Part shown: piece after piece, positions 30,764 to 43,260 of the stretch
Numbering within the stretch: position 1 is the first letter of the stretch
How the letters are laid out: every line of letters starts with the position of its first letter
DNA from: Ectocarpus siliculosus
Lineage: Eukaryota; Sar; Phaeophyceae; Ectocarpales; Ectocarpaceae
Reading direction: 5' to 3'
Length of the DNA: 64,000 nucleotides
Assembly: GCA_000310025.1 (NCBI GenBank)
Contig: FN648498.1
Span: 441,332-505,331 of the forward strand
The notes under the pieces: generated by a model
Told to the model about the DNA's origin: nothing
Seen by the model: only the letters and a program-made list of their open reading frames with translations
Database searches by the model: none
Position numbers and translations under genes: made by a program

Positions 30764-32280
30764 TTGAGGATCAGGTTGGAGTTTTGTCACCCACTCGACA
30801 ACATATTTATCTTTTGATAGTGGCCCTTGTTTAATTTGGAGCCTAGCTGTTGGCCATATGTAGCTGTTGTGGAGTGTACTGCATGGCAGGCCAAGCATCT
30901 TGGAAAACAAAGAACGACAAAGAATGGAGCGAGCCGCAAGCTACCACGTCCATAAGAGTCTACCATATACAGCATCACCAGCAGCTTGTGCACTCTGTTG
31001 TTGCGTGGGGATAAGGCAGCGTGTGTCTTGGCGCTGGCACGAACGATCCATTATATGCATACAATCCTGCATGTTCTAACCTGCGAGATAAAATTCAAAG
31101 CATATTATAGGGTATCCACATATGGATTGACGCGGAATTTTGACCTTTGAGGATTGACGCCAACATAAAGTGACGGTTGAGGGTTTTGACGGGAAAAATT
31201 CGCACCGCGTGTGCCCGTTGACACGTGAGAGGTGAAAAAAAAAAAATGGTGGAGGTAGAGTTCAAGGTTGGTTCGGGCTGCCACCCAGGGTCGACATTCC
31301 GAAGCGAAGACTCACACCCCCAGGCTCCCAGGAGACTAGGTGTACCCCTTCGCCTCATCCCGCCGACCTTCCCTCCTTTGCCGCGGCGACTTTTCCCAGG
31401 CGTCAAACTGCGACTTCCCAGGCGTCAAACTGCCGTTCGTTGCTGATGAGTAAGGCAGCTGCTCGCTGCACTGCTGTGTATATACCGATGTCACTGCGGC
31501 AGCAGAGCACCGAACCCCGTGAGGGGGCGGGCGAAATGCACCTACTGACTGGCAAAGTCCGTGTACCCTCCCTTACTCCTCTCCATGTGCTCCCTTCGAG
31601 GGCGAGACTCCCCCCATCACTCCCCTGCCTATGCCCCTTTTTGCTGCTGAAAGCCCGTGCGCAATCGCGACGGCGCATCTACCGAACGCGCGCGCCGAAC
31701 ACGCGCGTCTGGCCACTTGGCCGCCGTGAGAACTGCCGAGACGCGTGGGTGCAGGACCGCTAGGAGCAATCAGTATAGGCATGGCCAATGTGTTCGCTGC
31801 TGACCGCGCACAGCAGACCGCAGCAGAGCAAGCGTGTGTGAGCCACAGTCTGGCGATGTTTGAAGCGTCAATCTTTTCGCGTCGGTTTAATGGGTGAAAT
31901 TTAATTTTGACGCTTCCTCACAAAAATTTCGCCGTCAGAGTTTGCCCCCAAAAAAGCGGCGCAACCTCTTCACGTCAAAACTTCCTGAAATGTCAATCTT
32001 TCACGTCATTTCAACAACACGTGGATTCCCTCTATTGTTTTGATTCTTCGTGTTTTTCGTGGTGGAAATCCTGTTTGACTTTGTCAGCTTTTTTTCCGGT
32101 TCAAGATCCTTCTCTGTCTCCTATGACTCTTTGCTATCTGTTTTAAAGTACGGTTGAACTCGTCTGTAGTGCGACTCATGTTTTTGTCCTTGCGACCATC
32201 GGTATATTGCCGTGTTGTCGAATTTTATTGCTCTACTTCGGGTCTATTTTATGTTTGTATAAGGTTTTTTGGTAAATCGT
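30764..32280. other. Intergenic stretch with repeated TTGACG-type motifs
   Basis: No supported gene. At 31128-31195 TTGACG/TTTTGACG occurs several times (ATTGACGCGGAATTTTGACC), and the reverse motif recurs at 31865-32015 (GCGTCAATC, ACGTCAAAAC, ATGTCAATC, ACGTCA). This could be the degenerate ends of an inverted-repeat element of about 0.9 kb. An A11 run lies at about 31236. Confidence 0.35.
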
Positions 32281-32289
32281 TGACGATGG

Positions 32290-32640
32290 CTTCCATATGG
32301 AAGCGGGCATCTTCGTGAACGATGGCCATTGAAATTCTCGTGCAAGGTTCCATCAAAGTCCTTCGTGATGACTTCCATGGACGCTGGGCTCGGGTGATGC
32401 AATCCCACGATACATCTTCCATGGACGTCGCCGTGAGTATGACTTCCATGGACTTTGGCTTGCTTACATGGAGGTTATCTTGCACAGTCGACGAGCCCTC
32501 CCGTAGATCCTGCTTTCTTGAAAGTTGTCCTACCTCCATGGAATTTGCTGTGTTTCCATAGAAGCTGGCAGACATCATCGTCTAAGACTTCCATGGCTTG
32601 AAGGTCCTTTCATAGAATTATTCAAGCTTCCATGGAGGTC
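32290..32640. repeat. Cluster of TCCATGGA palindromes
   Basis: Five TCCATGGA octamers plus TCCATATGGA and TCCATGGC occur within 350 bp, mostly in the wider context CTTCCATGGA, at irregular spacings. A single 8-bp palindrome is expected about once per 65 kb, so this is a strong local excess. It lies just outside the left LTR at 32752. Confidence 0.75.
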
Positions 32641-32751
32641 GCCTGCCGGCCGTGACAAATGCCTCCGTGTAAATCGCCCTCTTATTTAGTGGCTGATTGT
32701 CACTGAATAACAACCTGGGTTGTTGGGACTCAAATCACCATCCCTGCAAAA

Positions 32752-33088
32752 TGTGGAGGTCAGGATATGAAGATTCAGGGAGCACAGATACACGTACATA
32801 AAGAGTAGGATCTGAGAGGATACGTGATAATAGATTACCGTTCTTCGAGGGTCTATGACTCTTACGATTCCCAACGGCTGCGAAGAGTTGATGAATATTT
32901 AGGAGAATGGGAAAAGGGTCCACGAAGGCTCGCCCACTCTCCTCGCCACCCTAGCTTGACTGAGTTCGCTCGGTCACGCTTGGCATTCCTCGCCATATTG
33001 CACCAAAGGAAATAGCCAACCTCCGGTGGCAGGACATAGCCACCACACTCCCGGACTCTCTACTCAGCCAGAGTAGAGGGCTTCCATA
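32752..33088 (+). repeat. Left LTR of the Ty3-type element
   Basis: 337 bp, starting TGTGGAGGTC and ending CTTCCATA. With a canonical TG..CA definition it would end two bases earlier. It matches 42071-42406 at about 98%. Confidence 0.92.
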
Positions 33089-33099
33089 TTGATTGGCGT

Positions 33100-35790
33100 T
33101 CGCCGAAGCGTTCTATCTTTACAACCCACGTGTGAAACATGGGCTCCAAAGGAGGAGGAAAGAAAAAGGTTTTCGAACTCGAGACACTTCCCCGTTACTT
33201 GCCGGAAGGCCATAGGTATGGTGCACTATTGCACTGGCGGCAGAGGGAGAATTCATGGATCGCATGCATGGACACTGTTAGAAATGGCTACAATACCAAG
33301 AGAGAGATTGCATGCCCCCCTAGTCCTGGTCTGCCTTCGCATGGTTTTGGTACGCGACCGATCAAACGGTCTAGACACGAAGCACGCAAGACTACATCGA
33401 ATGGGGATTGCCAGAAGAGGATGTTCCGGTCCCGTGATTGGAAACGACGAATACAGTACCTTGCTAAGCTGATTCAGTACAAGCCTTATAAAGTCGATGC
33501 CTATACATCAAAGCGCTAGCCCCTAAAAACATGCTGCGCATGATTAGGTATGTAGGGCAGGTGGGTATCACAGAGGATGTGCACTTAGCGTTCCAGACAC
33601 TACGCAATGCATACCTCGCGACTTTCCCCCCTCCTTTGGTCAAGCAACGTAAGGTACCTCAACTTGAAGTGATTAGTTTTACTAGTTCTGTTGCAGATTC
33701 CTTGGGACTCCGTGGGATGTTCATGCGTGCAAATATTCTAGCGTACATTCCCCCCCAACACCGTGCATTCCGTGACGCTGTACAACGTATTATCCCTTGT
33801 TTTAAGTATGGTGACACCTTAGATAGTATGATGTTCAATACCACTAACGTAGCAAGAGATGTAAATCATGGTAAATATAGATGTATTTGTAATGACCCCC
33901 AATGGAGTAAGTACACGGTTGTTGCGAAGGATGGTTCGAAATGTCTGATTACTACAGATACTGGATGTCTTAATGATGCCAACGCTGCAGCTGTGCTAAA
34001 CTTGCAGGCTGGTTCTAGAGCAGAATATGCTGAGGCCTTGAATGACCTGTCTTTCTTTGAATCGCTCGTAGAAGCCGTAGAATCGTACGTTGGCGACTTA
34101 TGCCATGAATTCAAAGTGCCACGTGATGACATTGAGGACTGGGAGGATGCTTTGTACGCCGCGATAGAACAAAAAGTTACTGACGCGGACAAGGGAGAAG
34201 TCCCTAAGCCTCTTACGAACCACATAGACTTTGCTGCAGCTAGAACATCTTTTCACCAATTGCACAAGAAGGTGGTGTTTACAAGAGTCGACAAAGCGGC
34301 CAACTGCATTTGTATCACATGTAAGGCGTGCTATATTAGGTTAGCCAAAGCAGAACTTGAAGGGCCGGGGTATAGGACAGTACACGGAGAGTTGGAGTTG
34401 GTGAAACAGACGACAATTGACCGACAACATAAGTTTTTGGTAGATGAAAAGCTACCCATCCCACAACGGCAGTACAAAGATGAGGACGGTGACACCCAGT
34501 ATGAAAACACTGAAAAGTTACCAACACGATACCTCACTGCTAAACTACATAAGCCGTTGGTAGCGACACGTGGAATTACAGCTTGTTGCGGTACGATAAC
34601 AGAAGGGGTGGCTAAGGTAGTTAATGCAGTTCTGGTTGGTATCCGGCCTTGTTTACATACGATCTGGCGTGAGGAATGCGCAAAAGTTGGTATTGCTGCC
34701 ACCGACTGTTGGATTACCTCTAGCGGGGAAAGTATCCTAGAGGTAGCACAGGATGTCGATATTCGAGCACAAATGGAGGGATGTACTGATGCGCATGTCT
34801 TCCAAACATTTGACTTCGTTGGTATGTGCCCTAACATCCCTGTAGTACCATTGAAGGCTTAATTGAGGGAAGCTTTAAAATTGTCATTTGAACACCAAAC
34901 TGAGAGACATGGGTTCAAATCTACGCAGTTGAGCAGTATAGCATTGGTACAAAACGGTATATAGATGACATTTTTACAGTGCGATATGGTAACCAGACTG
35001 GACCAACATTTGAAGATATTATATATAAGGAGGGTAATCAGTATGGTGGTATGTACCCTACGATGGTGCTAGATATGGATGGTGATGAGATAGAAAATCC
35101 TGTTCGCATTACACTAGAACAGTGTGGGGAATCAGCACACTTTCTGGATATGCAAATAGGGCAAGACATTCCTGGTAAGACTTGTATTGGTATGTATAAT
35201 AAGCGCCAACATATGGCTACGCTGAAGCAATATCGGGCATTTCCGCATTGGGAAACAGTGTTATCTACTAGGTGTAAAATGTCGACGTTACACCTGTCAA
35301 ATATGCCGATTTGCGATTATTAGATGTACTGATATTCGATTTTTTCAAGCAGCCACAGCCAGACTGATGGCTGATATGCTTGCACGTTACTACTCTAGTC
35401 GACTTGTACGTAATACTTTACACAATTTCATGTATACATTTTTTCGTACCTCGCCAGTGACCGCAAACATTGTGGGTATCAATGTACCTACGGTGCGGAA
35501 TTCATACTGGAAGAAAGTGGAACTGGGTATAGTATGTATTTGGAAGCGAATAGATACGAAGGACTTTTCTTGTTAGATTAGCTTGCGTGTTATCGCTTAA
35601 TGTGTTTGTTTTGATTACGTTTCGCTGTATTAGAAAGTGTTTCATTTTGTTGTTCAACAATTCCTGAAATGTTGTTACGTTGTGTTCGTACACCGTCATG
35701 TCTATATGATTAACAAAGACGCTGATATATATGTAATTAATGACGTAAAATTCCCGTTTAATTCGCTTTTTGTGCTAACAAACCTGCACA
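33100..35790 (+). mobile_element. Penelope-like reverse transcriptase region inside the LTR element
   Basis: A long reading frame region encodes a second reverse transcriptase that is not of Ty3 type. It shows a KLHKP motif, then a TFDF..PNIP motif comparable to the 'D..SLYTNIP' block of Penelope-like elements. Further on comes a YIDD catalytic box followed by FLDMQI and a Y-K-R block, which is the order expected for Penelope-like elements. No GIY-YIG endonuclease was recognised. The region is damaged and treated here as a fossil. Whether it is a separate insertion into the LTR element or a captured part is not settled; no clean insertion borders were found. Family placement is from motif order only. 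Confidence 0.6.
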
Positions 35791-35795
35791 CACTA

Positions 35796-36012
35796 CCGTA
35801 TATGACACAAGATAACACACCCCCTTGGCCGATTTTCAAAGCTCGATTTCTCAACAGCAGGAAGAGTCACAGCGCCGAAAACGGCGGCGTTGGAACCGTC
35901 TCGTCGAGAGCTGTTCGAAAACGTATTGTTTCATTTATGCATCCTCTTCGTCGTGGAGTAATCGAGCTTTGAAAATCGGTCCAGGGGGTGTGTTATCTTG
36001 TGTCATATACGG
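35796..36012. mobile_element. MITE, copy 2 (younger), inside the LTR element
   Basis: 217 bp with nearly perfect terminal inverted repeats of about 52 bp that start CCGTATATGACACAAGATAA, flanked by TA on both sides. TA duplication and end-to-end palindromy suggest a Tc1/mariner-type non-autonomous element. No transposase is encoded. It is related over its full length to the copy at 8193-8402. Confidence 0.88.
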
Positions 36013-36496
36013 TACTTTATTAGGAGCTTTATAGCTTATAGCGATGCGAAAATCTGTGGGCAACCGCATATTGGACCGTCGAAACCGCAAGGGGGAACAC
36101 TGAAAATGAAACGTGTCCCTTGCAATTAAGATAATCGATTTCTGCGCACATTTTATGTAAAACTCCCATACACCCAGGTGACAACGGAAAAATTGGGAAT
36201 TCCGACAAATTCCGCGGAACCAGAAATCTGCACTTCAAAGAGCCAGCCAGCCACATCTATGTGCTGAGAGGAGCACGCATGCAGTCATTCCGTTTTTAGC
36301 TCAGCTACCTACCTCTCTTGGATTGCGGAGCTAGCCGGCATTTCGGATCCAGCCGTTGTGCGATACTAATCATCTCCGATAGGACTTGAGGAGGACGGAC
36401 TGTAAAGCTGTAGTAGCATACTGCACTGCGTCTGCTCCTTGCTGCTGCTCTTGGCTGACCCAGGACTTCGAAAATCCCCACAGGTACGAACAAACT

Positions 36497-36560
36497 CCTT
36501 TATGTGTGGTCGAAGGATGGACTGCACTCCTTTGTGTGTGGTCGAAGGATGGACTACTGC
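36497..36560. repeat. 32-bp tandem duplication
   Basis: Two adjacent near-identical copies containing GTGTGGTCGAAGGATGGACT lie in the internal region of the LTR element between the MITE and pol. No function is inferred. Confidence 0.8.
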
Positions 36561-37199
36561 GGGCGAAAGCGAGAGTATCGTTTGCTGGGACTACCAAGTC
36601 CGACAACGACACTCGCAAAGAATTTGACTTTATTGGCTGTCGATTCAGTAACATTCGCTTCACGCACAACCGCGCGCCGACTGTAAGAACGAAGAAGCAG
36701 CAAAGAAAGAGGGGTACAAAGTTACCAAAGACTAGGGTCGCCCGAGTAGGCAGCGTCCTTCGGCCAACGTGGGACACCAATCATTTGGTTCTGTCAAACC
36801 AGTAGGTACAAACTGGGATAGACTGCAAAGTACGAGCAAGCAGAAGAGAGCCAAAGTAGATGAGAGGGATTCAAAACAATGTAAAAATGGTGTACGATCT
36901 CTGGTGGGAAAAAAGAAGAAAGCAGTCAGAGAGCAGCGCTGTAGCAAGACAGTTGAAGTACATGTACCACGAGAATATTCTCGCGAAGGTTGTAGCAACA
37001 AGCAGACGCGAGGGGTTCCGAAGTCGAGTACCAGCACAACTGATGCAGTAGCCTCTGTAGATCCAGCACTAAGGGATAGCACCCAAGTAGGGCAAGTAGC
37101 CGCCTGTCTAGCGCCGCAAGCCTTGCACGTAGCTACCGTAGCTGGGGGCTTCAGGTCGAAACATAGGTCCATCCTAATGAGAACTGACCGTAATGAAGA

Positions 37200-40100
37200 A
37201 TTTCAAGCTTTTTACATGTCTGCACTCGCTCGATACCCCGTGTGTCCATCGGTATTGCGATCGACATCCAAGCGAGTACGTGTACCCGCCAGAATAAATA
37301 ATGAATCGGTTGATGAAATAACAATCGACACGGCATGTGACATACCATGCATATCACGGAAGTTCATGAGAAGTCACAAAACGTTAAAAAATCTGCGAAG
37401 CGCTGATGGTTCGCCCCTAAAAATTGCAGGGTACACTCGATTTGAACTGACACTAGGCGAAATCACATTACCTGTTGAAGCTCTAGTGCTGCCGTCGTTG
37501 GGACCAGATAATATGCTACTCGACAATAGCATAATGGGCGCATTTGGTGGTGTTCTTGACTGGCAAGCGGAAGAACTGTCGTTTAAAACAGCAGCAACCA
37601 AAATTCCAGCCGTCCACCGCAAAAAGCGCTATCCCACGACTGATCAGGGAAACAGTTTGAACTGTTCTGTGGTAGCAGTAGAGAGGGACACGCCTGTGAT
37701 GCCTGTACAGTATACACTACAAGGAAATGCAGCATACCCGCACAACATGAGATAGCTGTTGAAATTCATTCGCTTGAGGCACCGGATGAAACCACGGCTG
37801 CCGTAGTTGAACCGCGCATCGTTACGTCCGATGACGTGGGCAAGCAGGATACACCAGATGCATTCCGCAGAGTGATAGTGGCACGCACGGTCTGTCACTG
37901 GTATAAGCACAACAAAAGTGCAATGGTCCAACTGGCCAACCCTTCTCACAGACCGGTATCTTTAAAGAGGAATACGCTCATCGGCTATATTTCTCCAGTG
38001 AAAACAGTACTGCCGCAAACAATGAGCAGCGTTCAATCGAGCCCTGCAGAAACGGAAAAAATTCGTGCAGATCTCACAAAAGCATTAGCCAAAGCTTTCC
38101 GAGATACAACTTTTTCGCCCGACCAGTGTGAAGAAATGCTTAAACTTTGTACCAAATACCGTTCAGTGTTCTCCCTGAGTCCTAAAGAACTGGGCAAATG
38201 TACTCTTACAGAGGCTGATTTTCCATTACAACCGGGGACAAAACCAGTCAACCGAGCTCCATATCGTGCTAATCCACGAATGCAAGAGGTCATTGACAAA
38301 TGTGTTGGTGAAATGGAAGAAGCCGGGATAATCGAACAAAGAGCGAGCCCATAGGGGTCAGCAGTAACGTTGGCAGCAAAAGCTGACGGCAGTCCCCGAT
38401 TCTGTGTAGACTACAGAGCGACGATCAACAAGAATTTAATTCGTAAATCGTGGCCAATGCCTGAAATGGCAAGTCATATTGACACCGTAGCAGGTGCTAA
38501 ATACATCACAGTCTGCGATGTACAAAGTGCATACCACCAAATACCAATTGCCGAAGCAGAACAAGAAAAGACTGCATTCGTTACTCGGGATGGAAAATGG
38601 GTTTTCAAACGACTCCCCTTTGGCATCGCCAATGCGCCTTTTCTGTTTCAACGTACGATGGCATTGACTTTCGCACATTTTGGTCCAAAGTCTGGTCTTC
38701 TTGTGTACATGGATGATCTTATTTGTTGTTCATCTACATGGGAGGGTCATATCTCTCTTTTGGAAAATACCTTTCAAGCGCTACAAGCCGCAGGTCTTAC
38801 ATTAAAACCATCAAAGGTACAATTTGGGCCAAAGGAAGTGAAGTATTTGGGGCATGTTCTTTCCGCAGATGGCATACGATTAGGTGACGATCGGATAAAA
38901 TCGATACTAGAGTTGCCAACGCCAACGAACATCAAAAGTTTGCGATCAGTCTTAGGAACGGTCAACTATGTCAGGAAATTCATCCCAGACTTAGCCGCCG
39001 TTACCGCACCAATGGTTGACCTTACGAAGAAAGACGCAGTGAAGTCGGTAGCGAAACGCTGGGGTTTGAAACATGATAAAGCATTTGCTGAAGTGAAACG
39101 TTTACTCACCAACGCTCCTGTTTTGCATTTTCCGGACTTTTCTAAGGAGTTTGTTATCCACGTCGACGCATCTGAAGTGGGAGCAGAAGCATTCCTGGCA
39201 CAACAGAATGGCGATGACGTCAATATCATAGCGTACTTTACCCAGCGATTCAACAAAAGCCAACAACACTACTCCGCCACCATGAAAGAATGCTACGCTG
39301 TTGTTCTAGCAATTCAACACTGGCGTCCTTATTTATGGGGTAGACATTTTACGTGCGTGACTGATCATGCGGCATTGCGATATCTTTACACGATGCAAGA
39401 CACGTCAAATATGCTCACCAGATGGGCAATAGCACTGCAATCCTTCGATTTCACGGTAAAACATAAACCGGGAAAGTTGCATGTAGTGCCGGATACGTTA
39501 TCGCGACTCTTCGTGTTTGAAAATGAACAAGAACGAACTGCGCCGAATCTTGCACCGATTTGCCGAAATGTACCGGACGACCCAAAGCTGCAACAACACA
39601 TGCCATACAGACCATACCAAGTCTCGATTGACAAATTGGATGATGTGCAACCAGTCCTTAGTGATAGGGAACTGTTCACAATCAAATCAAATTTCGTCAA
39701 CGCCATGAAGGTATTTGAATCTGTTGATCATGAGAAATTGCGCGAGAAACAAGCCGAAGAATACGGCGAATATGTCCAATACATTTTAGACGCCAAAGCA
39801 CGGCTACCGGACAACGAAACGGCAACATCAATGTCGTACTATTCCATACAAGACGGACTACTGTTTAAATCGTATCTGCCAGGACACCTACGAAAACGAA
39901 GCACTTTTAGTGATCAACTTGTAGTCCCACATGACCTCACAGGTTTAGTGATGCACGCATACCATGATCACGCTCTTTCGGGTGGACATCTCGCATTTCG
40001 TCCAACGTACGAAAAAATACGACAAAAATATTGGTGGCAGTGGATGAACCGTGACATACGGACATGGTGCCTAGAATGCCAGGCCTGTCAACGGAGAAAG

Positions 40101-41520
40101 ACACCCCACCGCCGTCCGAAACTGCCGACAGGTCATGTACCTGTACAGCGGCCATTTGAAAGAGTATCAGTCGACCTAGTCGAGTACAATCGCTCTCAAC
40201 ATCAGCAGTCGGAATGAGATGTAAATACGTGCTTTCCATGATGGATCACTTGACGCGTTATGCAATTCTCACACCAGTTCCGAACAAAACTGCTGAAACC
40301 GTAGCACGTGTAATCATTGATCGGATTATCAGTATCTTTGGCCCGCCAGAAATGCTACACTCTGATCAAGGCACTGAATTTGAAAACAAGATCATCTGTC
40401 AGTTGCAAACAATCTTGGGCTACAAGAAAACACGCACGACGCCGTATCGTCCGCAAGGTAATTCGGTCTCTGAGCGTGTGCATTCAACGATGCATTCCAT
40501 GCTCGCAATGCATAGTTCCATGGATCGTGACGACTGGGCGGAACTCCTGCCAATGGTTCAACTAGCGTATAATACGTCGTTTAATAAAACCATGCATGAG
40601 ACACCGTACTTCTTGATGTTTGGTCGCCAAGCACGGTTACCGGTAGATGTAATTCTCGGAATCCCACATGTAGGTTCAACTGGAGATACCGAGAGTTTTG
40701 CTCAAAACACACGAGAATATCTACAAATGGCTTTCGAACTAGCGCGAAGAAACCTAACGAAACGTGCAGAGAAGCAAGCTGCGAAAAACGAAAAGTTACC
40801 GCAGTACCCCGTCTTTAAACCTGGTCAACAAGTATACCGACCACACCAGGATTCAGATGGGCCAAATCCGAAGCTGTTCTTACCGTGGCGAGGACCGTAT
40901 GTCATCTGTTCACAACTGTCACCGGTTGTGTATAGGGTGCAGCGAGTAAATGAAACACGAGAAATATCCGTGCACCTTGCCCATCTAAAACAGTACCATT
41001 AAAAGGAAAAACCACCAGCACCACAGTATGGAAAACTGGCTGAATATTTCCTTGGGAAACAAATTCCCTTACCTGCCCTGACAGCAAACGACGAAAATCA
41101 ACCGAAAATTGAAAGATACGTCGTACTGAAAGTGGTAGGGCATCGAAGTGGTCAAGGCCGAAAAGGTCCGCACAACTATCGATATCGTCTAAGACTGAAA
41201 GGATACGGTCCTGAATCAGATCTGATGTATCGTGCCGACGAAGTGCCGCAATGCCACGAAACGATTTCCGCATACCGATCAAAACATGATCTGGACATCG
41301 CGCCCGCCAAGAAATCGTCTGAAGCGCCGCAGAAAAAAGCGAAGCGCAAACGTGACGAAGGTAGGGATCCGAGTACAAACAAACGCGCAAGGCACAAAGC
41401 AAAGCCAACCAAGGCAGGTACTAAGCCAACTAAATGCGTGAACAAGAAAAGTGCTCAGCGGAAAAGTAAACGAAGTCCGAAGGCAAACAAAAGATACATT
41501 TCCAAAGTGTCTAAACGGTG
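37200..41520 (+). mobile_element. pol region of the Ty3-type fossil
   Basis: Approximate parts: protease-like near 37.3-37.6 kb; reverse transcriptase 38.2-38.9 kb with the YMDD box; RNase H 39.1-39.5 kb; integrase 39.9-40.8 kb with an HHCC zinc head and a core with HSDQGTEFEN; then a Lys/Arg-rich tail up to 41.5 kb that begins with a chromodomain-like segment. It is not one continuous frame. The family assignment to Ty3/chromovirus is firm from RT and integrase. Confidence 0.88.
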
Positions 41521-42070
41521 AAAGGAATAGCATCCAAACAATAAGGTTGCTATCCAGCATTTGATTGGGTCAAATGCTGGCGAGGAAATGTCAAGTTAAC
41601 CGGTCTCTAGTGAAATTGAGGGTCGCAACTCGATGACACTACGTGAGTCACGGAAACAGTCTTTAGACTGTCGAACACCGTATGCCTGTTGTATCGTACT
41701 CAATAAGCAAAACGATTGCTTACACCCAGCGGTATGGTTACGCGAACCAGAACCCGCACAAAGTACAAATTCTTGATACTTAACAAGAATAAACTTTGAC
41801 ACATCATCATTGATTGACATCAATAACTGGTAGCTTGTACGAGCCTTGGAGAGATTAAATCCGTACGGTGTTGCTTTCAACACGTGTGTTTTCCACACGG
41901 CACTGTCAGCTGTCTTCGGATAGTGAGGGAGAGATTTAATTTTCGAAAAGCTGTATCTAGATCCAATGATACATCCATACCTGCTCCACTACAATTAACA
42001 TGCAAACATGCATGCGCGCCAAAACCCAACTTCAACAAGCTGAGCTTTCGGCGAAGAAAAAGGGGGGCTA

Positions 42071-42406
42071 TGTGGAGGTCAGGATATGGAGATTCAGGGA
42101 GTACAGATACACGTACATAAAGAGTAGGATCTGAGAGGATACGTGATAATAGATTACCGTTCTTCGAGGGTCTATGACTCTTACGATTCCCAACGGCTGC
42201 GAAGAGTTGATGAATTTTAGGAGAATGGGAAAAGGGTCCACGAAGGTTCGCCCACTCTCCTCGCCACCCTAGCTTGACTGAGTTCGCTCGGTCACGCTTG
42301 GTATTCCTCGCCATATTGCACCAAAGGAAATAGCCAACCTCCGGTGGCAGGACATAGCCACCACACTCCCGGACTCTCTGCTCAGCCAGAGTAGAGGTCT
42401 TCCATA
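42071..42406 (+). repeat. Right LTR of the Ty3-type element
   Basis: 336 bp, about 98% identical to 32752-33088, directly after a purine tract; AAAA follows it. Confidence 0.92.
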
Positions 42407-43260
42407 AAAATGCTTAAAAAAACTCATCATCTAATCCACCAGATGCTTGCCGGGTACTTTAAGTACCTTGACCCGGGGCGACACCAAAACCGAACTGATA
42501 TCCCTCACACACTCTGGTGTCATATCCTCGGGCAGTAACCTAAAACGCGTTGCCGAACATGCTTAGATGGGCGAAACAACTCACAAGATACTCTGAACTA
42601 CAAGAACATTGAGTAAACCCCCTTTCACCAAACAAGAAATTAACTTACTGTTTTCGATCACGTTAGCACAAACCACAGTAATCCTGCCCTAGATATACCT
42701 CCGGCCTTTTAGCCAGCAGCTCTCTCGGAGTCTACTCGCCGGCGTTCTTCTTACATTGACAAACTGGATTTCCAGTCTACCGCGAACAGCGAGCATTTGG
42801 GACAAGAGAACCGACGCACCGGTCTCGTGGTTGCGCCGTGACCCCAAATAGTCGCGAAGCGACGATGACGTCGTAGAGGATCACACCACGGAAGGCGACC
42901 ACTGCGGGTACTTGGAAAAAATTACCACAACAAAACTGTTGTTGCGTTGCCCCCATGTTGCGAGCTTGCGCTGGTACGCACATGCAAACCAGACCTCGTT
43001 GTCAACGAAGCTAATATGCCACAACAGATCGACGCCGATCCTGAAAAAGTCCCCCAAGTTGCGTGCACAAATGGGATTTATTTTTATGTCAGCTACGGGA
43101 AAGGGAAAAGGCTTCTCCAGTGGGTAGTTTCGGAATGGTGCATCGCAACCTCGGCATCACCGCACAAAACTGGTGCAAACACAGCAACGTCCGGAAACGC
43201 TAGAACGCAGCAGGCCAACCCAAGAAATATTATTCAAAAACCCAGCCCTTCCACCTACCT
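42407..43260. other. Spacer between LTR element and ankyrin gene, no gene seen
   Basis: Only short frames occur. A 15-bp palindrome GGTACTTTAAGTACC lies near 42456. It should contain the 3' UTR of the ankyrin gene. Confidence 0.4.

Follow-up and report, generated by a model that had tools for sequence, protein, structure and literature searches.

How did two unrelated reverse transcriptases (RTs) come to lie between a single pair of long terminal repeats (LTRs)? The question is raised by a locus of the brown alga Ectocarpus siliculosus, found within a 64,000-nucleotide stretch of contig FN648498.1 (assembly GCA_000310025.1, positions 441,332 to 505,331 of the forward strand; hereafter the window, from whose first base all coordinates are counted). 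The DNA between 32752 and 42406 is one copy of a Ty3-type LTR retrotransposon, ordinarily integrated, in which most of gag has given way to an internal fragment of a Penelope-like element (PLE). This looks like a one-off accident in one defective copy and not a new composite element; copy-choice between the RNAs of the LTR element and the PLE is its likeliest origin, an explanation to which we assign an evenly balanced probability.

The element is bounded by a 5′ LTR of 337 bp (32752..33088, + strand, TGTGGAGG...CCATA) and a 3′ LTR of 336 bp (42071..42406, +), which are 98% identical (6 substitutions and 1 gap across 337 columns) and flanked on both sides by the 4-bp target-site duplication AAAA (32748..32751 and 42407..42410, unstranded). 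The 5′ LTR is followed by a leader with a primer-binding site (PBS)-like sequence (33089..33138, +), in which TTGGCG begins at 33093 after four extra bases (TTGA) in this copy; a tRNA scan of the 64-kb window returned none, and the PBS-like site is hence without a tRNA match. A purine-rich, polypurine tract (PPT)-like run, GAAAAAGGGGGGCTA (42054..42070, +), precedes the 3′ LTR. The pol region (36736..41521, +) is spread over several broken frames with RT, RNase H, H2C2 and integrase core domains (Pfam RVT_1, RT_RNaseH, Integrase_H2C2 and rve), and a weak hint of a chromodomain (E 0.031, below cut-off). Because the domain order is RT-RNase H-integrase, the 3′ part of the element is Ty3-type. 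An earlier note, prepared from the letters of the window without database searches, had described near-identical LTRs, PBS-like and PPT-like sites and a Ty3-type element, all of which hold.

Other copies of the family were sought in the assembly (189 Mb, 492 contigs), where an LTR query gave at least 42 matches (40 of 116 first-look candidates scored). L031, L032 and L033 are complete copies with 4-bp duplications and no substitutions between their LTRs; L034 has a 4-bp duplication too, with 5 substitutions between its LTRs. The stop-to-stop frames of L032 encode a gag of 639 amino acids (Retrotrans_gag, E 0.01, below cut-off) and a pol of 1,607 amino acids, so that gag stands upstream of pol in this copy, an arrangement that the window copy lacks. 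The family thus has in common with Ty3/Gypsy elements (Metaviridae) its LTRs, PBS- and PPT-like sites, gag and pol frames and RT-RNase H-integrase order, whereas the window copy differs in the absence of most of gag and in the foreign fragment it carries. L035 (C478, 4452-5359) has two family LTRs whose start points are separated by 571 bp and which enclose the final 221 bp of the internal region, probably a remnant of tandem or recombined elements.

In the window, gag starts with its ATG and first 10 codons (MGSKGGGKKK; 33139..33169, +), is broken thereafter, and resumes with its last ~58 codons in a disturbed frame (36558..36735, +; junction exact to 0-4 bases). Gag is thereby replaced from codon 11 to near its end: bases 661-2371 of L032, or 1,711 bp, are missing from this place and absent from the entire 64-kb window. 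In their stead lies the PLE fragment, in sense orientation (33168..36557, +). At the left junction, gag AAAAAGG meets PLE GGTTTTCG with GG common to both (AGG when compared with L049), while at the right junction PLE GGACTAC adjoins gag (T)GCGGGCG, the two having 0-1 nt in common. Neither border of the PLE piece shows a duplication. Both joins fall inside the expected transcribed regions of both elements, in the same sense, with one 4-bp duplication outside.

The PLE fragment opens with the second half of an N-terminal GIY-YIG endonuclease region, the half bearing the GIY and YIG motifs being absent (33168..33430, +). It continues with a broken RT region (33492..35323, +) divided into the frames 33492-34862 and 34904-35323, the latter containing RYIDDIF, and ends in the PLE 3′ untranslated region with a pair of tandem 32-bp units that stop at the right junction (36494..36557, +). 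The second RT region with a YIDD box that the earlier note had placed in the 5′ third of the element is thus present, where gag sits in other copies. It is, however, incomplete, having suffered a 339-bp deletion at ~34932, between TTGAG repeats, that other copies do not share: spacing of matches indicates that the stretch is kept at five other places (C3, C6, C9, C13 and C14), and in the C3 copy L047 it was read as motif B. A 217-bp insert resembling a miniature inverted-repeat transposable element (MITE), with long inverted ends, interrupts the fragment at 35796..36012 (unstranded; TA flanks at 35794-35795 and 36013-36014), the corresponding site being empty in three other PLE copies. The MITE-like element occurs in at least 10 copies elsewhere at 98-100% identity, one of which (C66) also sits in a PLE copy, though not at the same position. 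With gag mostly lost, the RT deletion, the MITE-like insert and private frame-changing indels in pol, the window copy is dead, a fossil rather than a functioning composite.

Whether a composite element might nonetheless propagate elsewhere was addressed by looking, as the earlier note had proposed, for the YIDD region at the same place in other copies of the LTR element. Gag directly followed a full 5′ leader, with no second RT, in all 10 distinct fetched loci (C16, C27, C2, C131, C26, C241, C8, C492, C17 and C20; leader matches at C2:3993581 and C15:4522738 lie outside this count), and the partial leader of L034 (C458) is accompanied by gag too, from base 473 of the piece on. Junction searches of the assembly found the same chimera at no second site, the left junction being spanned at the window locus only (15/15 and 13/13 candidates scored), and the right junction likewise (18/18; 40/66 candidates scored with an earlier, longer query). 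The idea that this is a propagating LTR element with the second RT as functional cargo draws on the co-location of the two within one LTR pair and one target duplication, and on the gag ATG being in frame with the PLE endonuclease frame over 127 codons, for which the chance is one in three. Set against gag at the same place in all 10 other leader-bearing loci fetched, junctions found at this locus only, and a second RT that has lost 339 bp, is broken in frame and comes with half an endonuclease, the composite that the earlier note entertained as a novelty is the least credible of the explanations considered here. Copies with an ordinary gag and no second RT are the very outcome that the earlier note had named as its refutation, and in this assembly that outcome is what was observed.

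The second RT appears to be Penelope-like, as the earlier note had suggested from its motifs. Pfam does not recognize it, and NCBIfam and Protein Data Bank (PDB) sequence searches gave no RT match, the one or few PDB matches (E ≥0.1) not being meaningful. Comparison by BLASTP of the second RT of an independent copy with the Ty3 RT frame revealed no similarity (best E 3.2), in agreement with the earlier description of two unrelated RTs. The assignment comes from the reading of the motifs and from another locus, the C9 copy L048, in which an open frame of 616 amino acids runs into the RT part and carries a GIY-YIG domain N-terminal to it (PF01541, residues 55-94; E 1.5e-4, 22.4 bits against a cut-off of 22.6; the NCBIfam group I intron endonuclease match has E 0.047). 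In the C3 copy L047, whose match to the window begins at 33428, the sequence upstream differs and the frame is open into the RT part; this sequence may be another 5′ variant or else flank. Chlamys/Naiad PLEs have a permuted order, with GIY-YIG before RT, and Craig et al. in 2021 reportedly described them with an N-terminal GIY-YIG. Read from the open frame of L048, the PLE family would have this same permuted, Chlamys/Naiad-type domain order; the C9 copy resembles those elements in its GIY-YIG preceding RT in one open frame and in the photosynthetic host, whose genome carries chlorophyll a/b-binding protein genes (87 matches, many of them clustered). The likeness is one of domain order: no hammerhead ribozyme was matched in the parts scanned with Rfam (the element, L001, L036 and L047-L049; one match, E 0.41, far below cut-off), and the window copy is without both ends. 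According to passages of PMC12477816, Ectocarpus has PLEs of the Chlamys group, and these are the first to be reported from the stramenopile supergroup.

Outside the window, protein searches placed the PLE family at 17 close sites and at four more diverged ones (C464, C116, C101 and C19; 43/43 candidates scored), and the PLE is an independent mobile family at many loci. No relative was confirmed in viral contigs (11 and 86 pattern matches). Since two copies match the window from 33167/33168 and several end at 36557, the structure was initially read as a simple full-length PLE insertion; this reading was dropped because other copies extend on both sides. Upstream of 33168, L048 and L049 remain alike, the sequence common to C9 and C26 reaching ~631 bp further and perhaps more. 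Downstream of 36557, related sequence continues in 7 of 10 PLE copies (C88, C4, C16, C24, C17, C484 and C26), the script finding no terminal unit in the remaining 3. The limits 33168 and 36557 are therefore those of the window piece rather than of the PLE itself, and the piece is an internal one that lacks both natural ends. All four copies examined at their 3′ end (C14, C16, C26 and C6) finish at a poly(A)-like tract beyond which the flanks differ, 914 bp (C16) or 944 bp (C14) past the equivalent of 36557, and the 3′ part missing from the window piece does not occur elsewhere in 32000-43200. The starts of the copies vary (36215 in C88, 36148 in C4, 36019 in C24, 35334 in C16 and 35304 in C112), as is typical of target-primed insertions.

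Other PLE copies display rearrangements of their own. L057, L058, L059, L060 and L061 (C17, C484, C12, C26 and C15) share one layout of internal deletions, consisting of the 5′ part of L048 followed by the window equivalents 33975-34455, 35548-35793 and 36013 onward, and are probably a non-autonomous PLE derivative spread in trans. A fragment of the PLE 3′ region was also seen on C3 (L041, 8538-8684), ~3.4 kb past the 3′ LTR of another copy of the LTR family and outside that element.

A Penelope-like element jumping into the LTR element, as the earlier note alternatively proposed, is an incomplete account. A simple target-primed insertion fails to explain the structure because both PLE ends and 1.7 kb of gag are missing: the piece stops 914 bp short of the natural 3′ end, as measured in C16, and the host sequence, which such an insertion would leave continuous bar a short duplication, lacks 1,711 bp. 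What could be salvaged is a target-primed PLE insertion in gag followed by two deletions that took both PLE ends together with the gag sequence. Nested insertions are common in general, the PLE is mobile in its own right, and passages of PMC3846280 report PLE secondary insertions into other retroelements. Sizeable deletions are moreover known in PLE copies and in the gag of L034. Yet this course of events needs one insertion and two separate deletions, each with one end in the PLE and the other in the LTR element, in a copy of which the 5.5 kb of compared pol sequence contains no private indel larger than 36 bp; large deletions are thus not the rule in this copy. We regard a trimmed nested insertion as possible but rather unlikely.

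A further candidate is a repair origin, in which a PLE copy or cDNA served to patch a double-strand break in gag, or PLE reverse transcription began internally at the break, with loss of 1.7 kb of gag. This would account for the internal fragment, the loss of target sequence and the short overlaps at the junctions, and it finds precedent in PLE internal initiation in vitro (passages of PMC11167929) and in the use of broken ends by endonuclease-deficient PLEs (passages of PMC3846280). However, the poly(A)-like end is common to 4/4 PLE copies examined, the patch would exceed 3 kb, and the family carries an endonuclease. Insertion at a break by an endonuclease-free PLE, considered as a family trait, had indeed been dropped once the N-terminal GIY-YIG was found. 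Patch repair or direct insertion with target loss is, in our estimate, improbable.

Private substitutions were counted to date the join. Measured against five other LTRs, the 5′ LTR of the window copy has gained 3 substitutions and its 3′ LTR 4, or 7 in ~674 sites (1.04%), and pol has 57 private changes in 5,487 (1.04%); these rates agree, and change since integration is thus consistent across both. The 5′ part of the PLE piece has 6/260, 22/1,122 and 7/372 private changes (together 35/1,754), and the set 36016-36493 has 6/478 (rows L052 and L053, below the coverage limit, being left out). Because most PLE subregions carry at least as many private changes as the LTRs and pol, the PLE piece need not postdate integration; the counts also contain change that preceded the join and so give no more than a maximum for its age. 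They do not separate the origins, placing the join neither later than integration nor otherwise. An assembly error could also have joined two repeats. Both parts are repeats, but an error would need two wrong joins within one element with matching outer flanks and LTRs, and the private changes in pol match the divergence of the LTRs; we consider it very improbable, if slightly less so than a propagating composite.

We infer that the two sequences were joined during reverse transcription. PLE RNA would have been present alongside the RNA of the LTR element; the enzyme would have left gag RNA for the PLE 3′ untranslated region, read on across the PLE RT and half of the endonuclease, and returned to the first template close to where gag starts. 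Integration of the chimeric cDNA would then have been normal, with a 4-bp duplication, the MITE landing in the element afterwards. Copy-choice would explain as one event why the fragment is internal, in sense orientation and free of duplication at its borders, why gag is replaced and why integration was normal. That the RT of an LTR retrotransposon particle copied part of a Penelope RNA between two switches, yielding a chimera of two classes, we hold to be a little less than evenly probable. Jump-like accidents of a similar kind, in support of copy-choice, are found in the same LTR family. In L036 (C17, 5702-5922), the leader is duplicated and an inverted 68-bp piece of gag, which joins the LTR-leader border at CTTCCAT, lies between both leaders; L034 has a leader-gag deletion at CGTT.

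Several observations weigh against copy-choice. The joins of L034 and L036 could be explained by DNA repair too. The chimera is seen in one copy only and is known from assembled sequence alone, the joins have little sequence in common (2-3 nt left, 0-1 nt right, which chance allows), and sense orientation has a chance probability of one half. The PLE set 36215-36557, which overlaps the one above, has 1/341 private changes where ~3.5 are expected, a non-significant hint of a younger join. Finally, the sizeable gag deletion in L034 and the frequent internal deletions of PLE copies elsewhere help the trimmed nested insertion.

Template-switch complexes between LTR elements are already known. In the Angela complexes of cereal LTR retrotransposons (Sabot and Schulman 2007, PMC1950507), as in the window, one target duplication and near-identical outer LTRs surround material of two elements; they are explained there by co-packaged RNAs, with VejuL and BARE2 cited alongside. 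The window shows the single target duplication around near-identical outer LTRs that marks such complexes. The cereal complexes join LTR elements together and share an internal LTR, whereas in the window the partner is Penelope-like, an internal LTR is lacking and each join falls within the body of both elements. A PLE lying inside another retroelement, as in the window, is also described in passages of PMC3846280 for Adineta vaga; by comparison with that nested PLE, the window is without both PLE ends and without the matching part of the host element. Neither a Penelope partner in a template-switch complex nor an LTR-Penelope chimera was found in the portions of the open-licence literature searched.

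The window copy is probably a cross-class chimera, known from a single instance. If it did not arise by template switching, it would be a trimmed nested insertion, and a reminder to check the natural ends of an inner element before calling a structure nested or composite. If it did, it would be a natural record of a Penelope RNA in an LTR-element particle and reveal a route for cross-class carriage: Ty3-type particles could take in Penelope RNA, and their integrase could carry parts of it along.

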